Positions 38,655-48,867 of a DNA stretch of 50,781 nucleotides are shown here, piece after piece. Source of the DNA: Alicyclobacillus sendaiensis NBRC 100866. GTDB taxonomy: Bacteria; Bacillota; Bacilli; Alicyclobacillales; Alicyclobacillaceae. Position 1 is the stretch's first letter, and every line of letters begins with the position of its first letter. The notes beneath the pieces are model-generated. The model made no database searches and was not told where the DNA came from. It was given only the letters and a program-made list of their open reading frames with translations. The translations under genes and the position numbers were made by a program. Where the stretch lies: positions 1 through 50,781 of the forward strand of contig NZ_BCRQ01000011.1 of NCBI RefSeq assembly GCF_001552675.1. The letters run 5' to 3'.

Positions 38655-38686
38655 TTCAGCTTGTGCTCAAACGCACTTCAGCTTGT
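38655..38686. promoter_or_regulatory. Direct repeat TTCAGCTTGT, 22-bp period
   Basis: TTCAGCTTGT occurs at 38655-38664 and again at 38677-38686, two helical turns apart. It lies 50-80 bases before the GT39 start and 130-160 bases before the GalU-like start on the other strand. The layout fits tandem binding of an OmpR/PhoB-type response regulator. Confidence 0.45.
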
Positions 38687-38734
38687 TCCCGCATGATGGG
38701 CCCGCAACCACACGTGGGACAGATGGGGAGTGGA

Positions 38735-40957
38735 GTGACATTGGAGACCAGGCGCCGATGGACTTGGGACAAGGGCGTGCTCGCGGCGATCGCGGCCGCA
38801 GCGTTGTTCCTCAATCTGTACGCGCTCAACAAGGAGGGTTACGCCAACGAGTACTACGCGGCCGCCGTGCGCAGCATGCTTGAGAGCTGGCACAACTTCT
38901 TCTTTGCCTCGTTCGATCCCGGCGGCTTCATCACGATTGACAAACCGCCGTTCGATTTCTGGATCCAGGCCGCGTTCGCGTACGTCCTTGGCTTTCACGG
39001 TTATGCGCTGATCTTGCCTCAGGCGCTCGCGGACGTCGGTTCGGTCCTCTTGATGTTTGCGCTCGTCAAGCGCCACTTCGGCAAGGTCGCGGGGCTCATC
39101 GCGGCGGCGGTGATGGCCCTGACGCCCATCGCCGTGGCCGTGAGCCGCACCAACCAGGTGGACGGGCTGCTTGTCTTTCTGATGCTCGTCGCCACCTGGT
39201 TCTTGTTCCGCGCCATCGAGACCCACAAGCTTCGCCACTTGATGGGCGTCGCCATCTTCGAGGGGCTCGCGTTCAACACGAAGATGATGGAGGCCTATCT
39301 CATCCTGCCCGCCATCTACGTGGGCTACTTTGTCGCGTCCAAACTTCCGTGGCGCAAGAAGCTCGCCTATCTCGGTGCCATGACCGTCGTGTTAGGCGCC
39401 ATCTCGTTCAGCTGGGCCACCGCGGTGCAGCTCATGCCGGCGAGCGAGCGGCCGTACGTGGGCAGCACCTCGGACAACAACGAGTTCACGCTCATCTTCG
39501 GCTACAACGGCGTCAACCGGTTGACGGGCAACATGAGCGTGGGCGGGCGGAACTTTCGGATGGAGTTCGGCCGCTTCCCCGGCGCAGGCGAATTCGCCCG
39601 CCACTTCGGCGGCGGATCCGCCGGATTTCCCGGCGCCGCAGGATCCGGCGGCTCGGGCGGCTTCGGTCCCGGTGCGGGGACGGGCGGCTCGGGCGGCTTC
39701 GGTCCCGGCGCAAGTTCAGGAGGCGCGGGCTCCGGTTCCACCCGCGGCTTCCCCGGCGCAGGTCCAGGCGGCTCACCGTCGTTCCCGTTTGGCAGCGGCG
39801 AGTTCCGGCGCGCCTTTGGCACGGGTGGCTTTGGCGGTCGCTTCGGCGGCGGATTCAACCGCGGCGGCTTTGGCGGCGGTGGCATGTTTGACACCGGCAC
39901 GCGCGGGGTCCTGCGCCTCTTCCAGGCGCAGCTTGGGCCGCAGATCGGCTGGCTGTTGCCCATCGCCTGCCTGTCGCTCGTGCCGCTTTTCCGCAACGTG
40001 CGCTGGAAGCGGCGGCGGGAGCTCACCGAGCGCGAGCGAGCGGCCGTCTTCTGGACCGCGTGGCTCATCCCCGTCGGCGCGTTCTTCAGCATCGCGGGCT
40101 TTTTCCACCAGTACTACCTCATCACCCTGGCGCCCGCCATCGCGGCGCTCGTGGGCGCTGGCCTCACCACCATGTGGCGCGATTTTCGCGAGGGCGGCCG
40201 CTTCAAGTGGTATCTCGTCGGCGTGGTCCTGCTCGATCTCGTCTACGAGTGCCTGATGGTCCGGAGCTACCCGACCGTGCGCGACGCCCTCATCGCGGTG
40301 ACGGCTGGGCTCGCCGTGATCGCCGCGGCGCTCGTCCTTCTGCCGCGCGTGTCCGGGCGCTTGCGTCGCGCAGGCGCGGTGGTAGGCCTGTTGGCGCTCC
40401 TCGCCGTGCCAGGATACTGGTCGCTCACGCCCGCGCTCTACGGCGTCAACGGCACGATGCCTGCGGCGGGCCCTGCCGGATCGTCCATGGGCGGCATGGG
40501 TGCACGAGGCCGCACGAACGAAAACGACAACGTCGCGCAGTATGAGAAGCTCATCCGGTACCTCGTGGCGCATTACGAGCCGTCGAAGGGCTCGTTCCTG
40601 GTGGCCACGCTGAATGCACAGCCGGCCGAGCCCATCATCATCGCGACGGGGCTGCCAGTCATGGCCATGGGCGGTTTCTCGGGATCGGACGCGGCCATGA
40701 CGGTGTCGAAGCTCGCCAAGCTGTGCGAGGAGGGTAAGGTCAAGTACTTCCTCATCGACGGCGGGGGATTCGGCGGCCGCGGCAACAGCCAGCTCGTGGC
40801 GTGGATCGAAAAGCACTGCAAGCTCGTTCCGGCGAGCGTGTGGGGCGGCGTGTCGCAAAGCACGTCGAACCAGCGGGAGGGGTTCGGTGGCTTTGGCGGA
40901 TTTGGCGGTACGGGAGGGCTTGAACTGTATGTCTACACAGGCCAGACCCAGTCGTGA
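38735..40957 (+). CDS. GT39-family membrane glycosyltransferase with Gly-rich loop (YkcB-like)
   Basis: Polytopic glycosyltransferase of the ArnT/PMT type, 740 aa from the GTG at 38735 (GGGGA 5 bases upstream; ATG 38723 and TTG 38741 are alternatives). The first loop holds NEYYAAAVRSMLESWHNFFF and IDKPPFDFWIQAAFAY, where this family keeps its catalytic acidic residue, and about ten helices follow. Residues about 290-385 are an extended Gly-rich segment (SGGFGPGAG, GGSGGFGPGASS, FGGGFNRGGFGGGG) with repeats visible in the DNA. A second Gly/Phe-rich patch (GGFGGFGGFGG) is near the end. A YkcC-like GT2 follows with overlap, as in Bacillus ykcBC, so a polyprenyl-phosphate sugar donor is expected. 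Confidence 0.85.
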   Translation: MTLETRRRWTWDKGVLAAIAAAALFLNLYALNKEGYANEYYAAAVRSMLESWHNFFFASFDPGGFITIDKPPFDFWIQAAFAYVLGFHGYALILPQALADVGSVLLMFALVKRHFGKVAGLIAAAVMALTPIAVAVSRTNQVDGLLVFLMLVATWFLFRAIETHKLRHLMGVAIFEGLAFNTKMMEAYLILPAIYVGYFVASKLPWRKKLAYLGAMTVVLGAISFSWATAVQLMPASERPYVGSTSDNNEFTLIFGYNGVNRLTGNMSVGGRNFRMEFGRFPGAGEFARHFGGGSAGFPGAAGSGGSGGFGPGAGTGGSGGFGPGASSGGAGSGSTRGFPGAGPGGSPSFPFGSGEFRRAFGTGGFGGRFGGGFNRGGFGGGGMFDTGTRGVLRLFQAQLGPQIGWLLPIACLSLVPLFRNVRWKRRRELTERERAAVFWTAWLIPVGAFFSIAGFFHQYYLITLAPAIAALVGAGLTTMWRDFREGGRFKWYLVGVVLLDLVYECLMVRSYPTVRDALIAVTAGLAVIAAALVLLPRVSGRLRRAGAVVGLLALLAVPGYWSLTPALYGVNGTMPAAGPAGSSMGGMGARGRTNENDNVAQYEKLIRYLVAHYEPSKGSFLVATLNAQPAEPIIIATGLPVMAMGGFSGSDAAMTVSKLAKLCEEGKVKYFLIDGGGFGGRGNSQLVAWIEKHCKLVPASVWGGVSQSTSNQREGFGGFGGFGGTGGLELYVYTGQTQS
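39647..39708 (+). repeat. Tandem 36-bp coding repeat in the Gly-rich loop
   Basis: A 26-base identical segment beginning GGCGGCTCGGGCGGCTTCGG is at 39647-39672 and again at 39683-39708, a period of 36 bases (12 codons). It encodes GGSGGFGPG twice and keeps the frame, so loop length could change by slippage. Confidence 0.8.
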
Positions 40958-41981: not shown

Positions 41982-43206
41982 GTCGCCTTTGCGCAGGCTC
42001 GGCAGATGGCCAGGGTGGGCGTGGTTTCTCGCGTGCGCCTTGGCGTCGCTCGCCATTCAGTTGCTGCTTGCCGCCACCACGCGCGGCTACGTGGCGGATC
42101 AGGCCATCTTTCTCCGCTGGGCCGAGGAGGTGCGCGCGTGGGGCTTGTCGCGCGCGTACGAGGAGGGCGGGATCGACTACCCGCCCTTGTACTTGTACGT
42201 GCTCGACGTCTACGCGCGGCTTGCGTCGGCCGGGCACCTGAACGTGCGCCCGGGGACGTTGTGGGCCAAGCTGCCTGGGGTCATCCTGTACGCGGCGTTC
42301 ATGCCCCTCATCTGGCGCCTGTCGAGGGGGCTTAGCGAGGACAAGCGGCGGTGGGCCATCGCCACGTACTGCCTGAACCCGGTCCTCATCTTCGACACCG
42401 CAGTCTGGGGGCAGGTGGACGTCCTCGACGCGACGCTCGCGCTGGTCGCCGTGTGGCTGGTCGCGAGGCGGCCGCTTCTCGCGGGCGTCGCCTTCGGCCT
42501 CGGGCTCGCGGCGAAGTTCGAGACCATCGTCGTGCTGCCGGTCCTCGTGGGCGCCGCGCTTTTCGTGCCAAACCGCGTGCGGCGTGTGGCCGCGATGGCG
42601 CTCGGCGCTCTGATGCCGCTCGCGCTCTCTGTCCTTCCGCTTGCGGGCGGCGGGCTGTGGCCCATGATTCGCTCCGCGTACATCGGCACCACCAGCGAGT
42701 ATCCGTACCTCAGCATGAACGCCATGAACATCTGGTTTGACTTGTTGGACGCGTCGCCGTACATCTCGGACCGCTCCACGGCGCTCTTGGGCCTCAGCTA
42801 CAAGGACGTGGGGCTTTTGCTCCTCACCGCGGCCTGCCTCGCGGCCCTCGCCTATCTGGCGCGATCCCGCCGGGCGCTTCCCGTGAGGCTGTTGATTGCC
42901 GCCGGCTTCGTCAGCTTCTCGTTTTTCATGCTGGCGACCGAGATGCACGAGCGGTACGTGGTGCTCGCGGTGGCGCTCATGGCCTGGCTCGGCGCCCTCG
43001 ACAAGCGGTGGCGCGCCGTGGCCGCGGCCGTCGCGTTCAGCGCGTTCTGGAACCTGTGGGTGGTGTGCTTTGGCGCGGTGAACGCACAGCAGGACGCGTG
43101 GATGGTCTACCTGAACCTCGCCGCGTACGGGGCCATGGAGGTCATCATGGTGCGGGAGGTTCGACGTCGGCGGACGGTGCGGCCTGCTCCCGAAGCAATC
43201 GAATGA
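41974..43206 (+). CDS. Polytopic GT-C glycosyltransferase (GT87/PIG-M-like)
   Basis: A 410-residue membrane protein with about 9-10 helices. The first extracytoplasmic loop (YVADQAIFLRWAEEVRAWG) and DYPPLYLYVLD are GT-C-like, as are AVWGQVDVLDA and ATEMHERYVV, seen in GT87 and mannosyltransferase-like proteins. The GTG start at 41974 overlaps the GT2 stop by 8 bases, with GGGGAGG upstream. The third gene of the operon would use the polyprenyl-sugar made by the GT2. The acceptor (teichoic-acid-like polymer, glycoprotein or glycolipid) is unknown. Its end overlaps the convergent sirC gene by 62 bases. Confidence 0.82.
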   Translation: MSESPLRRLGRWPGWAWFLACALASLAIQLLLAATTRGYVADQAIFLRWAEEVRAWGLSRAYEEGGIDYPPLYLYVLDVYARLASAGHLNVRPGTLWAKLPGVILYAAFMPLIWRLSRGLSEDKRRWAIATYCLNPVLIFDTAVWGQVDVLDATLALVAVWLVARRPLLAGVAFGLGLAAKFETIVVLPVLVGAALFVPNRVRRVAAMALGALMPLALSVLPLAGGGLWPMIRSAYIGTTSEYPYLSMNAMNIWFDLLDASPYISDRSTALLGLSYKDVGLLLLTAACLAALAYLARSRRALPVRLLIAAGFVSFSFFMLATEMHERYVVLAVALMAWLGALDKRWRAVAAAVAFSAFWNLWVVCFGAVNAQQDAWMVYLNLAAYGAMEVIMVREVRRRRTVRPAPEAIE

Positions 43207-43708: not shown

Positions 43709-43715
43709 CCGATGC

Positions 43716-43912
43716 TCACCATCCTTCAGCCACGCCGCCGTAGCGGCTGATGGCCATCTCGTGGATGATCCGACGCTCATCTGGCTGGAGATAGGCCATC
43801 GTCAATTCTTCGACAATCTCCTCATGGCATCGTCATACTGCAGAAACGCGCGGGTCGCGATTTCGCGAATGAGATCGTGGTGGTTCCCCTTGGCCGTGAC
43901 GGTCCTTTTCAT
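43716..43912 (-). pseudogene. Small frameshifted gene upstream of sirC, unknown function
   Basis: Reading leftward, ATG 43912 (site GAGGCGGGTG, 5 bases away) gives KRTVTAKGNHHDLIREIATR and on to LQYDDAM, then runs to a stop in that frame. Directly at that point a second frame gives EEIVEELTMAYLQPDERRI and then IHEMAISRYGGVAEGW with a stop at 43716. Adding one G after ATG (near 43829) joins them into a coherent 65-residue acidic helical protein. Both halves read like real protein. The second ends 7 bases before the sirC start. I do not recognise the family. Explanations: one-base deletion, sequence error, or programmed frameshift. Confidence 0.6.
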
Positions 43913-44122
43913 CGGTTCACCCGCCTCGCGGGTTGGGCGTGTGCTTCGCCATCTGCCTCATCCCTCATTCGCGTTCTCATCGATGCGCGCCACGAGTCGT
44001 GTATCCATCAGGTGCGAAGATCCGTTCACTGCCATCGTACCAAACGGGCATCCGGGCGTCTATGCAGGTTCTCCACGCTCGATGTCGCCGGATCGACAGA
44101 CCCGTTCAACCCGCCGCCCAAT

Positions 44123-44211
44123 CACCCCAAAATCCGATTGACATTCTGGTTCAACGCGATTAACGTGGAGGTACGGTGGAATGTCGTAAAAACCAATTGG
44201 ATTTTGGGGTG
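44123..44211. repeat. 18-bp near-perfect inverted repeat bracketing the cysH promoter
   Basis: CACCCCAAAATCCGATTG at 44123-44140 is matched in reverse complement by 44194-44211 with one mismatch. The arms are 53 bases apart. The left arm ends inside the minus-35 box; the right arm includes the cysH ribosome site GGGGTG and an inner palindrome CCAATTGG. The promoter would start transcription between the arms, so paired operator sites (looping or cooperative binding) are likelier than an RNA hairpin. Confidence 0.7.
44138..44166 (+). promoter_or_regulatory. Promoter of the cysH-cysI operon
   Basis: Perfect minus-35 TTGACA at 44138-44143, 17-base spacer, minus-10 TAACGT at 44161-44166 (three of six matches). 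It lies 53 bases before the cysH ATG and is framed by the inverted repeat. A weak minus-10 suits a promoter that needs an activator or is tightly controlled. Confidence 0.55.
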
Positions 44212-44218
44212 AATATCC

Positions 44219-44923
44219 ATGGCTGTGACCCTGGAACAGGCGGCGTGGATCGACGAACTGGCCGCGGCCTATGAAGAGGCGCGACCGGAGGACATCTTGC
44301 GCGAGGCGCTGAGCAGGGTGCCCAACATCACGTTTGCGTGCTCGTTCGGCGCCGAGGACATGGTCATCCTCGACATGCTCATGTCCATCGATCGCGAGGC
44401 CGACGTGTTCTATCTGGATACGAACGTGCTCTTTCCCGAGACCTACGAACTGATTCAGCGGGCCGTCGAGAAGTACGGGATTCCGAATCTGCACCAAGTG
44501 CTCCCGAAGCTGACGCTCGAGGAACAGGCCGCGCAGTACGGCGACGCACTCTGGAGCCGCGATCCGAACCTGTGCTGCAAGATTCGCAAGGTCGAACCCC
44601 TCGCCGATTTTCTCGCGGGTTACGACGGCTGGATCACCGGCATCCGGCGCGAGCAGGCGCCGACGCGGCGCAACGCCAAGGTCTTCGAATGGGACGCCAA
44701 GTTCCACATCGTCAAGGTCAACCCGCTCGTGCGCTGGACGCAGAAAGACGTGTGGAACTACATCGTCGAGCGGGGCGTCCCCTACAATCCCTTGCACGAT
44801 CGCAACTATCCGTCGATTGGTTGCCTGCACTGCACGCGTCCCGTGAAACCGGGCGAAGACCCGCGGAGCGGCCGCTGGGCCGGCTTCGACAAGACCGAGT
44901 GCGGTCTGCACGCCGATTCGTGA
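44219..44923 (+). CDS. cysH: Adenylyl/phosphoadenylyl-sulfate reductase
   Basis: Reduces APS (or PAPS) to sulfite in assimilatory sulfate reduction, 234 aa. Iron-sulfur cysteines typical of the APS-reductase type are present: Cys119-Cys120 (CCKIRK) and Cys202-Cys205 (CLHC). The catalytic Cys228 is in ECGLH near the C-terminus. SFGAEDMVILDM is the substrate P-loop-like part. ATG 44219 follows GGGGTG by 7 bases. It is the first gene of the sulfite-siroheme operon. The iron-sulfur cysteines suggest APS as substrate, as in Bacillus CysH. Confidence 0.94.
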   Translation: MAVTLEQAAWIDELAAAYEEARPEDILREALSRVPNITFACSFGAEDMVILDMLMSIDREADVFYLDTNVLFPETYELIQRAVEKYGIPNLHQVLPKLTLEEQAAQYGDALWSRDPNLCCKIRKVEPLADFLAGYDGWITGIRREQAPTRRNAKVFEWDAKFHIVKVNPLVRWTQKDVWNYIVERGVPYNPLHDRNYPSIGCLHCTRPVKPGEDPRSGRWAGFDKTECGLHADS

Positions 44924-44935
44924 GGGGGTGCGAGC

Positions 44936-46621
44936 GTGTCGGAGGAGAAGCTGTCCAAGGTCGAGATCATCAAGAAGAACAGCCGCTTCCTGCGCGGGCC
45001 GCTTCAGGAGGAGCTGCAGAACGACGCCTCCCACTTCACCGAAGAGGCCGTACAGGTGCTCAAGTTCCACGGCACCTATCAGCAGGACGATCGCGACCTG
45101 CGCCGGGAACTCGTCAAGCAGGGCAAGGAACGTCATTACATCATGATGATCCGCGCGCGCATCCCGGGCGGCGTCCTGAACGCGGATCAATACCTCGTGT
45201 TCGACCGCTTGGCCGACGAGTACGGCAACGGCACCATGCGCATCACCACGCGGCAGACGTTCCAGCTGCACGGCGTGCTGAAGCGGGATCTCAAGTCCAC
45301 CATTCGCCGGATCAACGAGGCGCTCATCACGACGCTCGGCGGCTGTGGGGACCAGGTGCGGAACACCGTCGGCTGCGCGCATCCGCACCAGGGCCCGTTT
45401 GAGGAGGCGGTTCGCCGGGATCTGCTCCGGCTCGTGGACGAGACGAGCGCCAAGACGAACGCGTACCACGAGATCTGGCTCGACGGCGAGCGGGTGGACC
45501 CGGAGCTGGACCGCGAGCGCGAGACCCTGTACGGCGAGATGTATCTGCCGCGCAAGTTCAAGATTGGCTTCGCGTACGAGGGCGACAACTGCTCGGACGT
45601 GTATTCGAACGACATCGGCATCGTGGCGCACCGAGACGGCGACGCCGTGGCCGGGTACACGCTTGTCATCGGCGGCGGCATGGGCCGCACCGCGAGCGAC
45701 AAGGAGACCCATCCCGCCCTCGCCAAACCGTTCGCCTTCGTCGCGCCGGGCGATCTCGTCGACGTGGTGAAGGCCATCATCACCATCCAGCGCGATCACG
45801 GCAACCGCGAGAACCGCAAGTTTGCGCGGATGAAGTACCTCGTCGAATCGCGCGGCGTCGACTGGTTCCGCGAGGAGGCGGAGCGGCGCCTGGGGAGAAA
45901 GCTCGCCCCGCCGCGCGAACTCGTCTGGCGCTCGTCGGACGATCACCTCGGCCGCATCGAGGACGGCGACAAGGTGCACCTCGGGCTGTACATCGAGAAC
46001 GGGCGCATCGCCGACAGGCCCGGGTTTCCGCTCAAATCGGCGCTTCGGGATGTCATCGCCAAGTACCGCCCGACCGTGCGCCTGACGACACAGCAAAACC
46101 TGATCCTGGCCGATCTCGCCCCGCAGGACGCCGACGCCCTCGAGGCGGAACTCGCCGCCCGAGGCATTCGCCTGCCGGACGCGTACTCGCCCGTGAAGCT
46201 TCGGTCGATGGCCTGCCCGGCCATGCCGACCTGCGGGCTCGCCATCGCGGAATCCGAGCGCGTGTTCCCGAAGGTCGTCGAGCGCCTCGAAGCCCTTCTC
46301 GCGGAGCTCGGCCTCGCGGATGAGCCCATCACCGTGCGCATGACCGGCTGCGCCAACGGCTGCGCGCGGCCGTACATCGCGGAGATTGGCTTCGTCGGCC
46401 GCGTCATCGGCAAGTACGACATCTTCCTCGGCGCCAACGTCGAAGGCACGCGCCTGAACACGCGCTTCCGCGAAATGGTGCCGTTTGACGATCTCGTCCC
46501 GACCCTCCGCCCGCTGCTCGAGCTGTACCGCGACGAGCGGCTGCCCGGCGAGCGGTTCGGCGACTTCTGCCAGCGCGTCGGGATCGAGCGGCTGAACCAG
46601 GCCGTCCCGGTCTCGTCCTAA
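44936..46621 (+). CDS. cysI: Sulfite reductase hemoprotein
   Basis: Six-electron reduction of sulfite to sulfide with siroheme and a [4Fe-4S] cluster, 561 aa. Two ferredoxin-like repeats are seen (GTMRITTRQTFQLHGV; PTVRLTTQQNLILADL). Cluster cysteines are in ACPAMPTCGLA and TGCANGCARPYIAEIG. GTG 44936 follows GAGGGGGTG. No cysJ flavoprotein gene is adjacent, so electrons may come from ferredoxin or a CysJ encoded elsewhere. The siroheme genes just downstream provide its cofactor. Confidence 0.94.
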   Translation: MSEEKLSKVEIIKKNSRFLRGPLQEELQNDASHFTEEAVQVLKFHGTYQQDDRDLRRELVKQGKERHYIMMIRARIPGGVLNADQYLVFDRLADEYGNGTMRITTRQTFQLHGVLKRDLKSTIRRINEALITTLGGCGDQVRNTVGCAHPHQGPFEEAVRRDLLRLVDETSAKTNAYHEIWLDGERVDPELDRERETLYGEMYLPRKFKIGFAYEGDNCSDVYSNDIGIVAHRDGDAVAGYTLVIGGGMGRTASDKETHPALAKPFAFVAPGDLVDVVKAIITIQRDHGNRENRKFARMKYLVESRGVDWFREEAERRLGRKLAPPRELVWRSSDDHLGRIEDGDKVHLGLYIENGRIADRPGFPLKSALRDVIAKYRPTVRLTTQQNLILADLAPQDADALEAELAARGIRLPDAYSPVKLRSMACPAMPTCGLAIAESERVFPKVVERLEALLAELGLADEPITVRMTGCANGCARPYIAEIGFVGRVIGKYDIFLGANVEGTRLNTRFREMVPFDDLVPTLRPLLELYRDERLPGERFGDFCQRVGIERLNQAVPVSS

Positions 46622-46660
46622 CACCGCCGCGCACCGAAGAGAAACAGGGAGGCGATGCAC

Positions 46661-48091
46661 ATGGCCTACGGCCGCGTGGCGCTTGTCGGCGCCGGCCCCG
46701 GCCATCCGGGGCTTTTAACCGAGCGCGCCCGAGCGCTCGTGGAACAGGCGGATGTGGTGGTCTACGACAGGCTCGTCTCGCCGCGCCTCGTCATGCACGC
46801 CAAACCGGACGCCGCCCTTTTGTACGCCGGCAAGGCGCCGGGCTGCCACGCGCTCAGGCAGCGAGACATCGAGGCGATGCTCGTGGATTTGGCGCGCGAT
46901 CACGCCCTCGTCGTCCGCCTGAAGGGCGGCGATCCGCTCGTGTTTGGCCGCGGCGCCGAGGAGGCGGCCGCCTTGCGCGCGGCGGGCGTGCCGTTCGAAC
47001 TGGTGCCGGGCGTCACGTCGGCCGTGGCCGTGCCTGCCTTCGCGGGCATTCCCGTGACGCTAAGGGGCGTGAGCCGCTCGTTCGCCGTCGCCACGGGGCA
47101 CGCGGGCGACGGGCTTCAAACCCATCTCGACGCCCTCGCGGGGGCGGAGACGCTCGTCCTGCTCATGGGCGTCGCCGAATGGCCGCGGATCGCAGAAGAG
47201 CTCGCGGCGCGGGGCGTCTCGCCCGACACGCCGGCCGCGATGGTCGAGTGGGGCTCTCGCGCCAAGCAGCGCTCGGTCCGCGCGACGCTCGCCACGCTGG
47301 CCGCCGAGGCCAAGCGGCGGGAGATTGGCTCGCCCGCCGTGATCATCATCGGCCACGTGGCGGCCGACGCCTCGCTCGGCGCGTGGTTCGAATCCCTGCC
47401 GCGCTTCGGGGAGCGCCACCTGATCTTTGCCTCCTCCATGCGCGAAGCGCTCGCCCACGCGACGCAGCTCGAGGCCGAAGGGGCCGAGGTGATGGCCTGC
47501 ACGTGGGATCGGGCGCGGGCGGTGCGCGTGGCCGAGATGGAGGCCGCGGTGTCCATGGCGGCGCAGGGCAGGTCCGTGGGCTTTGCGCTCCGCACGGCGC
47601 TCGGCGTCGAGGCGTGGTACTGCGCCGTGCAGCGCGCGGGGTTGGATCTGCGCCGGCTCGGACACGTCAAGCTCGCCGTTGTCGACGGCTACGTCGCGCA
47701 GGCTGTGCGAGAGCGCGGATTGGTGCCGGATGCCCGCTCGCTCGGCGAGATGGCGCGGCTGCCCGTGGAGGTGTGGTTCGTGGAAGCGCAGAGCGGAGGC
47801 CGCGATGCAGACGCGGAGGCGGCCTGCGCGGCGAGCGGCGCCGACGTGCGCTCGCTCCACCTCCTGGAGCCGCGGCTCGCACCGGCCGTGCCGGAGCGCT
47901 GGCGCCCGTGTTTGCGGGCGTGGCGCGATGTCGTCGCCGAGTGGCTCGCCGACGGCCCGGCCGAGCGATGGGCGCTTGGCGATCCCGCCCTGGTGCGCCC
48001 GCTCGCCGTCGAGGTGGGGCTCGGCGGTGATGCGCTGCGCCGGGCCGATGCGTTCGGCCTCGCGGCCGCCGAGGCGGCGTACGGCGCATGA
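46661..48091 (+). CDS. Uroporphyrinogen-III C-methyltransferase fused to HemD-like domain
   Basis: Two-domain protein, 476 aa. Residues 1 to about 245 are the SAM-dependent CobA/SUMT domain making precorrin-2: VALVGAGPGHPGLLT, DVVVYDRLVS, VVRLKGGDPLVFGRG, PGVTSAVAVPAFAGIPVTLRG (in parts). The rest (about 255-476) resembles a uroporphyrinogen-III synthase domain but is divergent and Ala/Arg-rich, so its activity is uncertain. ATG 46661 is chosen because AGGGAGG ends 8 bases before it; ATG 46655 is too close. It lies between sulfite reductase and chelatase, so it serves siroheme synthesis. Confidence 0.87.
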   Translation: MAYGRVALVGAGPGHPGLLTERARALVEQADVVVYDRLVSPRLVMHAKPDAALLYAGKAPGCHALRQRDIEAMLVDLARDHALVVRLKGGDPLVFGRGAEEAAALRAAGVPFELVPGVTSAVAVPAFAGIPVTLRGVSRSFAVATGHAGDGLQTHLDALAGAETLVLLMGVAEWPRIAEELAARGVSPDTPAAMVEWGSRAKQRSVRATLATLAAEAKRREIGSPAVIIIGHVAADASLGAWFESLPRFGERHLIFASSMREALAHATQLEAEGAEVMACTWDRARAVRVAEMEAAVSMAAQGRSVGFALRTALGVEAWYCAVQRAGLDLRRLGHVKLAVVDGYVAQAVRERGLVPDARSLGEMARLPVEVWFVEAQSGGRDADAEAACAASGADVRSLHLLEPRLAPAVPERWRPCLRAWRDVVAEWLADGPAERWALGDPALVRPLAVEVGLGGDALRRADAFGLAAAEAAYGA

Positions 48092-48108
48092 AGCGGGGAG
48101 GCGCAACG

Positions 48109-48867
48109 ATGCTCTTCGTCGGCCACGGGACGCGGCTTGAACGCGGCATGCATCTGTGGCACCAGTTCGTGGACGATGTCGTGAAGCGTGCGGGGCTTTC
48201 GGAGCATGGCGTCGCGCGCGCGTTCGTCGAGATCGACCGGCCGGATGTGACAGAGGCGCTCGTGGCCCTTTCTCGCGCGGGCGTGCGGCGGGTGCACGGG
48301 GTGCCGCTCTTTCTCTTTTCGGCGGGGCACATGCAGGTGGATCTGCCAGAGGCGGTGGCGCGCGCGGAGGAGCGGGTGGGGCGGCTTGACATCACCTGGA
48401 GCCCGCCGTTCGGGGACGAACCTGCGCTCATCGACGTCGCGGTCGATCGCGCCAAGGAGATTGCCGCGCGCATGCCGGAAGGGGCGGGAGTGGTGCTCGT
48501 GGGGCGCGGCAATCGGGACGAGGGCGCGCAGCGCGCGTTTGCGGAAGTGGCGGCGAAGATCGGGAGCCGCATGGGCGCACCGCTGGTCCACGGCTACCTG
48601 GCCGGCACGGGCCGCAAGCTGGAAGACGCGCTCGAGGAACTGTGGCGCAGGGGCTGCCGGCACATCGTCGTGGTGCCGTACCTGTGGTTTCCAGGGCTTC
48701 TCACGGAGGGGCTTCCGGAGCGCGTGAACCGGTGGCGTGGTGCGAGGGACATCTCGTTTCAGGTGGCCGAGCCGCTTGGGCGAGATCCGCGGCTCGTAGC
48801 GCTCGTGGCCGAGCGGGTGCGGCGCGCGGCGGATGGCCACGACGTCGGCGTCGGCACCTTGGCGTGA
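48109..48867 (+). CDS. sirB: Sirohydrochlorin chelatase (CbiX/SirB type)
   Basis: Inserts iron (or cobalt) into sirohydrochlorin, the last siroheme step; 252 aa. The first half begins LFVGHGTRLERG with the metal-binding His. RVHGVPLFLFSAGHMQVDLPEA holds the second His. The second half repeats the fold (VVLVGRGNRDEGAQ and VVVPYLWFPGLLTEG), with the catalytic His positions changed in this copy. ATG 48109 follows GGGGAGG by about 8 bases; ATG 48088 overlaps the previous stop but has no site. With cobA-hemD here and sirC at 43145, siroheme synthesis from uroporphyrinogen is complete. Confidence 0.88.
   Translation: MLFVGHGTRLERGMHLWHQFVDDVVKRAGLSEHGVARAFVEIDRPDVTEALVALSRAGVRRVHGVPLFLFSAGHMQVDLPEAVARAEERVGRLDITWSPPFGDEPALIDVAVDRAKEIAARMPEGAGVVLVGRGNRDEGAQRAFAEVAAKIGSRMGAPLVHGYLAGTGRKLEDALEELWRRGCRHIVVVPYLWFPGLLTEGLPERVNRWRGARDISFQVAEPLGRDPRLVALVAERVRRAADGHDVGVGTLA

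Follow-up and report, generated by a model that had tools for sequence, protein, structure and literature searches.

Two predicted CymR-type operators in the arms of an inverted repeat around the cysH promoter of Alicyclobacillus sendaiensis

Introduction

Which factor acts on the long inverted repeat that frames the cysH promoter of Alicyclobacillus sendaiensis? The repeat lies in the window considered here, that is, the whole analyzed stretch of 50,781 bases. A sequence-only reading of the window tentatively attributed it to a different sulfur regulator, possibly one that loops the promoter DNA, and named tetrameric proteins of LysR or Rrf2 type as suitable. The genes downstream of the repeat are as follows.

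44219..44923, plus strand: cysH, phosphoadenylyl-/adenylyl-sulfate reductase, with the ATG at 44219
44936..46621, plus strand: assimilatory sulfite reductase hemoprotein gene
46655..48091, plus strand: uroporphyrinogen-III C-methyltransferase gene (siroheme)
48088..48867, plus strand: sirohydrochlorin chelatase-like gene (NCBIfam matches under their cut-offs)

Among named records, the closest relatives of this cysH are found in A. fructus (95%) and A. mali (92%). The divergent gene upstream of cysH encodes a siroheme-synthase-type NAD-binding domain (PF13241). Between these two genes, at 43715–43915 on the minus strand, there are two overlapping short frames that resemble a single small protein, putatively broken by a frameshift. 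Elsewhere in the window, a membrane-protein-like frame (38663–40957, plus strand) contains a long Gly/Ser/Phe-rich stretch of GGxG repeats.

In Bacillus subtilis the leader of cysH is an S-box (SAM riboswitch). It controls the same gene, whereas here no Rfam family, S-box included, matched either strand of the window at the gathering threshold. The sequence-only reading was thus right in setting the present leader apart from the S-box type.

Data sets and operator matrix

The comparison covered the regions upstream of cysH at 30 loci of Alicyclobacillaceae, together with additional regions from other lineages. Loci L057–L059 are outside these 30. Two contigs are present under two identifiers each (L026 and L052; L024 and L053). 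Seventeen distinct sites from cysH leaders served to train a matrix of 25 columns, with the sites of the six species of the query clade (L022–L027) and of L038 excluded; in the table of sites L040 was omitted and L049 was placed by hand. The 20 Paenibacillaceae cysH loci (L060–L077, L081 and L085) were drawn from 80 relatives. For cysK of other Bacillales the best locus per genome was taken, which left 15 out of 30 loci. The Alicyclobacillus cysK count was made without the second copies L207–L211 and without L198, which was dropped because the contig ends there.

The inverted repeat and the promoter

The repeat and the elements that it touches are listed below.

44122..44140, plus strand: arm 1 of the inverted repeat, TCACCCCAAAATCCGATTG
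44138..44143, plus strand: −35 box TTGACA, with a position conserved in relatives
44161..44166, plus strand: weak −10 box TAACGT, inferred by alignment with relatives, after a 17-nt spacer
44194..44212, plus strand: arm 2 of the inverted repeat, CAATTGGATTTTGGGGTGA
44206..44212, plus strand: ribosome site GGGGTGA, doubling as the outer end of arm 2

The original description, a match of 17 out of 18 bases between 44123–44140 and 44194–44211, is borne out. The repeat is one base longer outward on each side, so that 18 of 19 positions are paired around a gap of 53 nt. A search of the window for arms of 18 nt, allowing one mismatch and a gap of up to 100, returned this repeat and no other (in two overlapping registers), and 30 dinucleotide-preserving shuffles contained no equivalent repeats. 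A degenerate 19-mer search allowing up to three mismatches retrieved the two arms only, the chance mean being 0.01. The cysH inverted repeat is a real feature.

Its placement was also described correctly. Arm 1 overlaps the −35 box, arm 2 ends on the ribosome site six bases before the cysH ATG, and the predicted transcription start, placed near 44173 by alignment with relatives, falls between the arms. A consensus promoter scan did not report the cysH promoter, hence both the promoter and the start near 44173 rest on relatives having a better −10 box. On the minus strand at arm 1, inspection by eye revealed no leader peptide or divergent promoter shared by the clade.

A conserved dyad in cysH leaders

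The core of arm 2, ATCGGAAT or a variant of it such as ATTGGATT, recurs in relatives at a constant place, downstream of the −10 box and ahead of the ribosome site. By column counts, a looser partner AATTC begins 16 bases before this core. The resulting dyad before cysH consists of two halves of about 9 bp around 7 bp, roughly 25 bp in all, and is conserved in Alicyclobacillaceae and Paenibacillaceae. Arm 2 bears its strong half; the left half is loosely conserved among the training sites as well. The distance between the core and the ribosome site is variable among relatives, which makes it unlikely that the protein's target includes the ribosome site. The operator matches only the inner part of each arm. 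Brevibacillus and most Bacillus cysH loci yielded no convincing operator site. The more distant Alicyclobacillus cysH copies L057, L058 and L059 (65–67% identity) are also without a convincing operator, so other control may apply to them.

The matrix points to two candidate operators in the query, one in each arm.

44130..44154, minus strand: O1, predicted operator of CymR type spanning the −35 box; score 15.1, with the good half at 44130–44138
44180..44204, plus strand: O2, predicted operator of CymR type within the leader of cysH; score 9.4, with the good half at 44196–44204

In the ranking of the whole window by the matrix, O1 is first and O2 is second, followed by a third site scoring 7.3. 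When the region 44101–44220 was shuffled 2000 times, the top score was reached in one shuffle and the second score in none. Both query operators have a single good half, the opposite half scoring −1.4 in O1 and O2 alike. Scored on the 9-bp core only, O1 is equaled by another site of the window and O2 (7.6) falls outside the best twelve.

Of the 30 Alicyclobacillaceae cysH loci, training sites included, 28 have an O2 with a score of 9.4 or more, the exceptions being L038 and L040. A minus-strand O1 is situated 49–51 bp from O2 in all six clade species (scores from 5.7 to 16.7), the lowest of these scores, that of A. fructus, being under the 99.99th background percentile and hence within background. 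O1 is present also in L037 and L038, at 47 and 50 bp from O2, with scores of 14.5 and 12.0, respectively. The spacing in the eight species counted with both operators is thus 47–51 bp, about 4.8 helical turns, and it follows from the promoter. O1-like matches at other distances are found in L032 (12.8) and L031 (7.7), both at 59 bp, and in L039 (8.1, at 65 bp). O1 is mostly absent where O2 is strongest, and L038 has O1 together with a ruined O2. Such a distribution may reflect operator turnover.

Matches of the matrix upstream of cysK and sat

The same matrix was applied to other loci. In other Bacillales, the locus-best match is upstream of cysK in 12 of the 15 genomes (mean for permuted matrices 3.4, maximum 9), and in Paenibacillaceae it is upstream of cysH at 16 of the 20 loci (permuted mean 3.5, maximum 10). 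Neither count was matched by any of 300 column-permuted matrices. Two of the 16 Paenibacillaceae matches (L074 and L077) are near −150 and not near −55, and the four remaining loci (L065, L068, L075, L081) have weaker upstream matches only. Within Alicyclobacillus, whose genomes here are closely related, the locus-best match is upstream of cysK in 12 of 14 genomes (equaled by 2 of 300 permuted matrices) and upstream of sat in 12 of 15 (equaled by 1 of 300); two of the 12 sat matches are weak, with scores of 7.2 (L233) and 6.9 (L235). In the query genome, the sat site scores 12.8 and overlaps TACAAT, and the cysK site scores 11.3 and overlaps TATACT.

These two sites emerge only with the operator matrix. 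The strict core pattern had 37 matches in 15 genomes of the genus, against 7 for the reversed control. Loci were available for 30 of the 37 matches; 13 of them lie in cysH leaders, each from a different genome, and the other 17 fall inside long frames or at their edges. No regulon can therefore be derived from the strict core pattern. A looser gapped pattern had 44 matches in the query genome, against 9 for the control. Its sole exact match is before sat, and one of its three matches with one mismatch is O2; the cysK site of the same genome is not listed by this pattern.

The sat gene is located apart from the cysH operon in the clade genomes. The matrix sites upstream of sat (L223, L224, L226, L227, L228 and L231; scores 12.8–18.5) end in TATCGGTTTA in all six of them.

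Identity of the regulator

Each arm probably contributes the strong, outward-facing half-site of one operator of CymR, the cysteine repressor from the Rrf2 family. Conservation of the dyad, the matrix ranking, the sites before sat and cysK and the presence of a CymR orthologue together make this the best reading. The orthologue encoded in the query genome scores 201.2 bits with NCBIfam NF047409 (cut-off 195), and its best PDB match is 2y75, CymR of B. subtilis. Its gene is between rarA-like and cysteine-desulfurase-like genes (names given by eye). The orthologue exceeds the cut-off in 14 of 15 genomes of the genus, the remaining one scoring 194.1 bits. The target genes agree with what is described for related bacteria. 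According to passages of PMC3519770, CymR represses cysK and cysH in B. subtilis, and in B. cereus both genes are preceded by predicted CymR motifs; a passage of PMC3828012 likewise places B. subtilis cysK under CymR control. A literature search listed nothing relevant on cysH regulation or CymR in Alicyclobacillus. The assignment to CymR rests on the target genes and on orthology.

An Rrf2-type protein, one of the regulators considered by the sequence-only reading, is therefore supported as the best candidate, namely CymR itself, given the matrix, the cysK and sat sites and the orthologue. The idea of a different or new sulfur regulator did not gain support, a known one being most likely. The architecture is that of the family: Rrf2 operators have two halves around approximately 7 bp, as here, and the NsrR site is given in a passage of PMC9338935 as 23 bp with a central 7-bp stretch; the letters of the half-sites differ. 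In contrast to the Rrf2 family generally, the CymR orthologue of the query genome belongs to the cluster-free branch, the same source stating that B. subtilis CymR binds no iron-sulfur cluster. Both sites could instead be bound by some other Rrf2 protein, such as the one encoded near suf. The genome does encode further members of this family, one of them beside suf genes (neighbors named by eye), and a passage of PMC3828012 describes the IscR and CymR motifs as similar. However, the matrix targets are genes of the cysteine pathway (cysH, sat, cysK), as expected for CymR, and we consider a regulator of this other kind quite improbable.

With CymR as the regulator, the switch would operate as follows. 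At plentiful cysteine CymR, which in B. subtilis acts together with CysK, would occupy O1, O2 or both, and RNA polymerase would be blocked at the cysH operon. With the start predicted near 44173, O1 would extend from about −43 to −19 and O2 from about +8 to +32, and a protein on either site would impede RNA polymerase in binding or in escape. At sulfur shortage CymR would leave the operators. We infer CymR binding, repression and the cysteine signal at cysH from sequence.

The whole arms as protein sites

The earlier proposal was that a tetrameric regulator, of LysR type or another looping one, binds the arms over their whole 18–19 bp and loops the promoter DNA. The promoter is indeed flanked by the arms, there is a conserved block ahead of the −35 box, and a weak −10 box would suit an activator. 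However, the spacing between the core and the ribosome site varies among relatives, and a whole 18-bp arm is unlike the site of one protein, given that only its inner part matches the operator; a LysR-type regulator finds no support. Nor does looping, as a spacing of 47–51 bp is short, is not a whole number of helical turns and is set by the promoter. Sites of the CACCCCAAAATCC type had been expected before other sulfur genes; in the query genome, none of the matches with zero or one mismatch is so located, and whole-arm sites at this stringency are absent before other genes altogether. Looping is neither needed nor supported, and we regard a looping regulator as very improbable.

The whole-arm pattern TCACCCCAAAATCC, tried as a search pattern in the query genome with up to two mismatches, was rejected. 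It yielded 19 matches against 3 for the reversed control: two are the arms themselves, two have one mismatch and 15 have two. Both matches with one mismatch are inside a response-regulator-like frame (assigned by eye).

The outer part of the repeat

Two CymR operators give no explanation for the outer 7–9 bp of the arms, TCACCCC(AA) against (TT)GGGGTGA, where arm 1 is the complement of the ribosome site. That these positions match by chance is unlikely. They fall in a conserved block.

44118..44129, plus strand: clade-specific conserved block, CCCAATCACCCC plus one more base, which includes the ribosome-site complement

Identity over 44118–44128 equals 0.89 in five clade species, compared with 0.36 over 44030–44112; in A. 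fructus this block is lost.

An explanation at the RNA level would be that in read-through transcripts the arms pair and the resulting long hairpin makes the ribosome site inaccessible; translation would then be confined to transcripts from the proper promoter, which start without arm 1. Pairing of this kind could act in addition to CymR. For the RNA of 44110–44240 the predicted folding energy is −48.7 kcal/mol (z −3.2), with 1 of 200 shuffles doing equally well, and the folding of RNA from the start point is unremarkable (z 0.38). The pairing part of arm 1 is within the conserved block. Predicted masking of the ribosome site by upstream sequence is 0.98–0.99 in four of the six clade species (0.98 in the query), but is low in the other two, A. 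fructus (0.29) and L027 (0.07). High values are predicted also for species without the repeat (L030, 0.96; L047, 0.77; L028, 0.75; L037, 0.72), which means that the masking prediction is not very specific. Moreover, the conserved CCCAA pairs with nothing in arm 2, and three clade species have an A-A mismatch between the arms. As for a source of read-through, a gene of the window ending at 43206 reads toward cysH, and the terminator scan gave a single weak candidate, no more than in shuffles. A glycosyltransferase-like gene is directed toward cysH in the window and at four clade loci (L024–L027); the available upstream DNA of L023 contains no such gene in this orientation. Weighing these observations, we consider it unlikely that hairpin formation in read-through RNA accounts for the repeat; masking of stray transcripts is a possible second role.

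Masking of this type is known from the IS10 transposase and T4 lysozyme genes. As in those cases, a complement of the ribosome site is present here just upstream of the proper start and only long RNAs would fold; unlike them, the conservation is partial and the read-through transcript is only hypothetical. The two levels might be combined. In the A. acidocaldarius clade, the repeat would then add a second CymR operator across the promoter and also put a ribosome-site complement upstream of the start, the latter silencing the translation of read-through RNA, and operator turnover would be caught midway. We give this composite scenario a small chance; if it is true, the cysteine switch would be guarded at the DNA and RNA level at once.

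Relation to known systems

In the cysH repeat the kind of switch is known, with CymR as the most likely regulator, and the layout is unusual. The CymR box of Bacillales shares with the present sites the kind of target genes, a dyad of Rrf2 type and a CymR orthologue in the genome. In contrast to it, two operators on opposite strands, with one good half each, are arranged here around one promoter, and the ribosome-site complement is attached to the upstream one.

The comparison makes a sequence-level case for CymR control of cysH, sat and cysK in Alicyclobacillus and of cysH in Paenibacillaceae, and the matrix may be used for mapping the CymR regulon. The locus also illustrates possible turnover of operators across a promoter. 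The attached ribosome-site complement is a small puzzle which can be tested directly.

An Alicyclobacillus locus outside the query clade, L037 (on the same contig as L093), has its own repeat without the ribosome-site complement, in the twin arrangement ACAATTCCGAT / ATCGGAATTGT.
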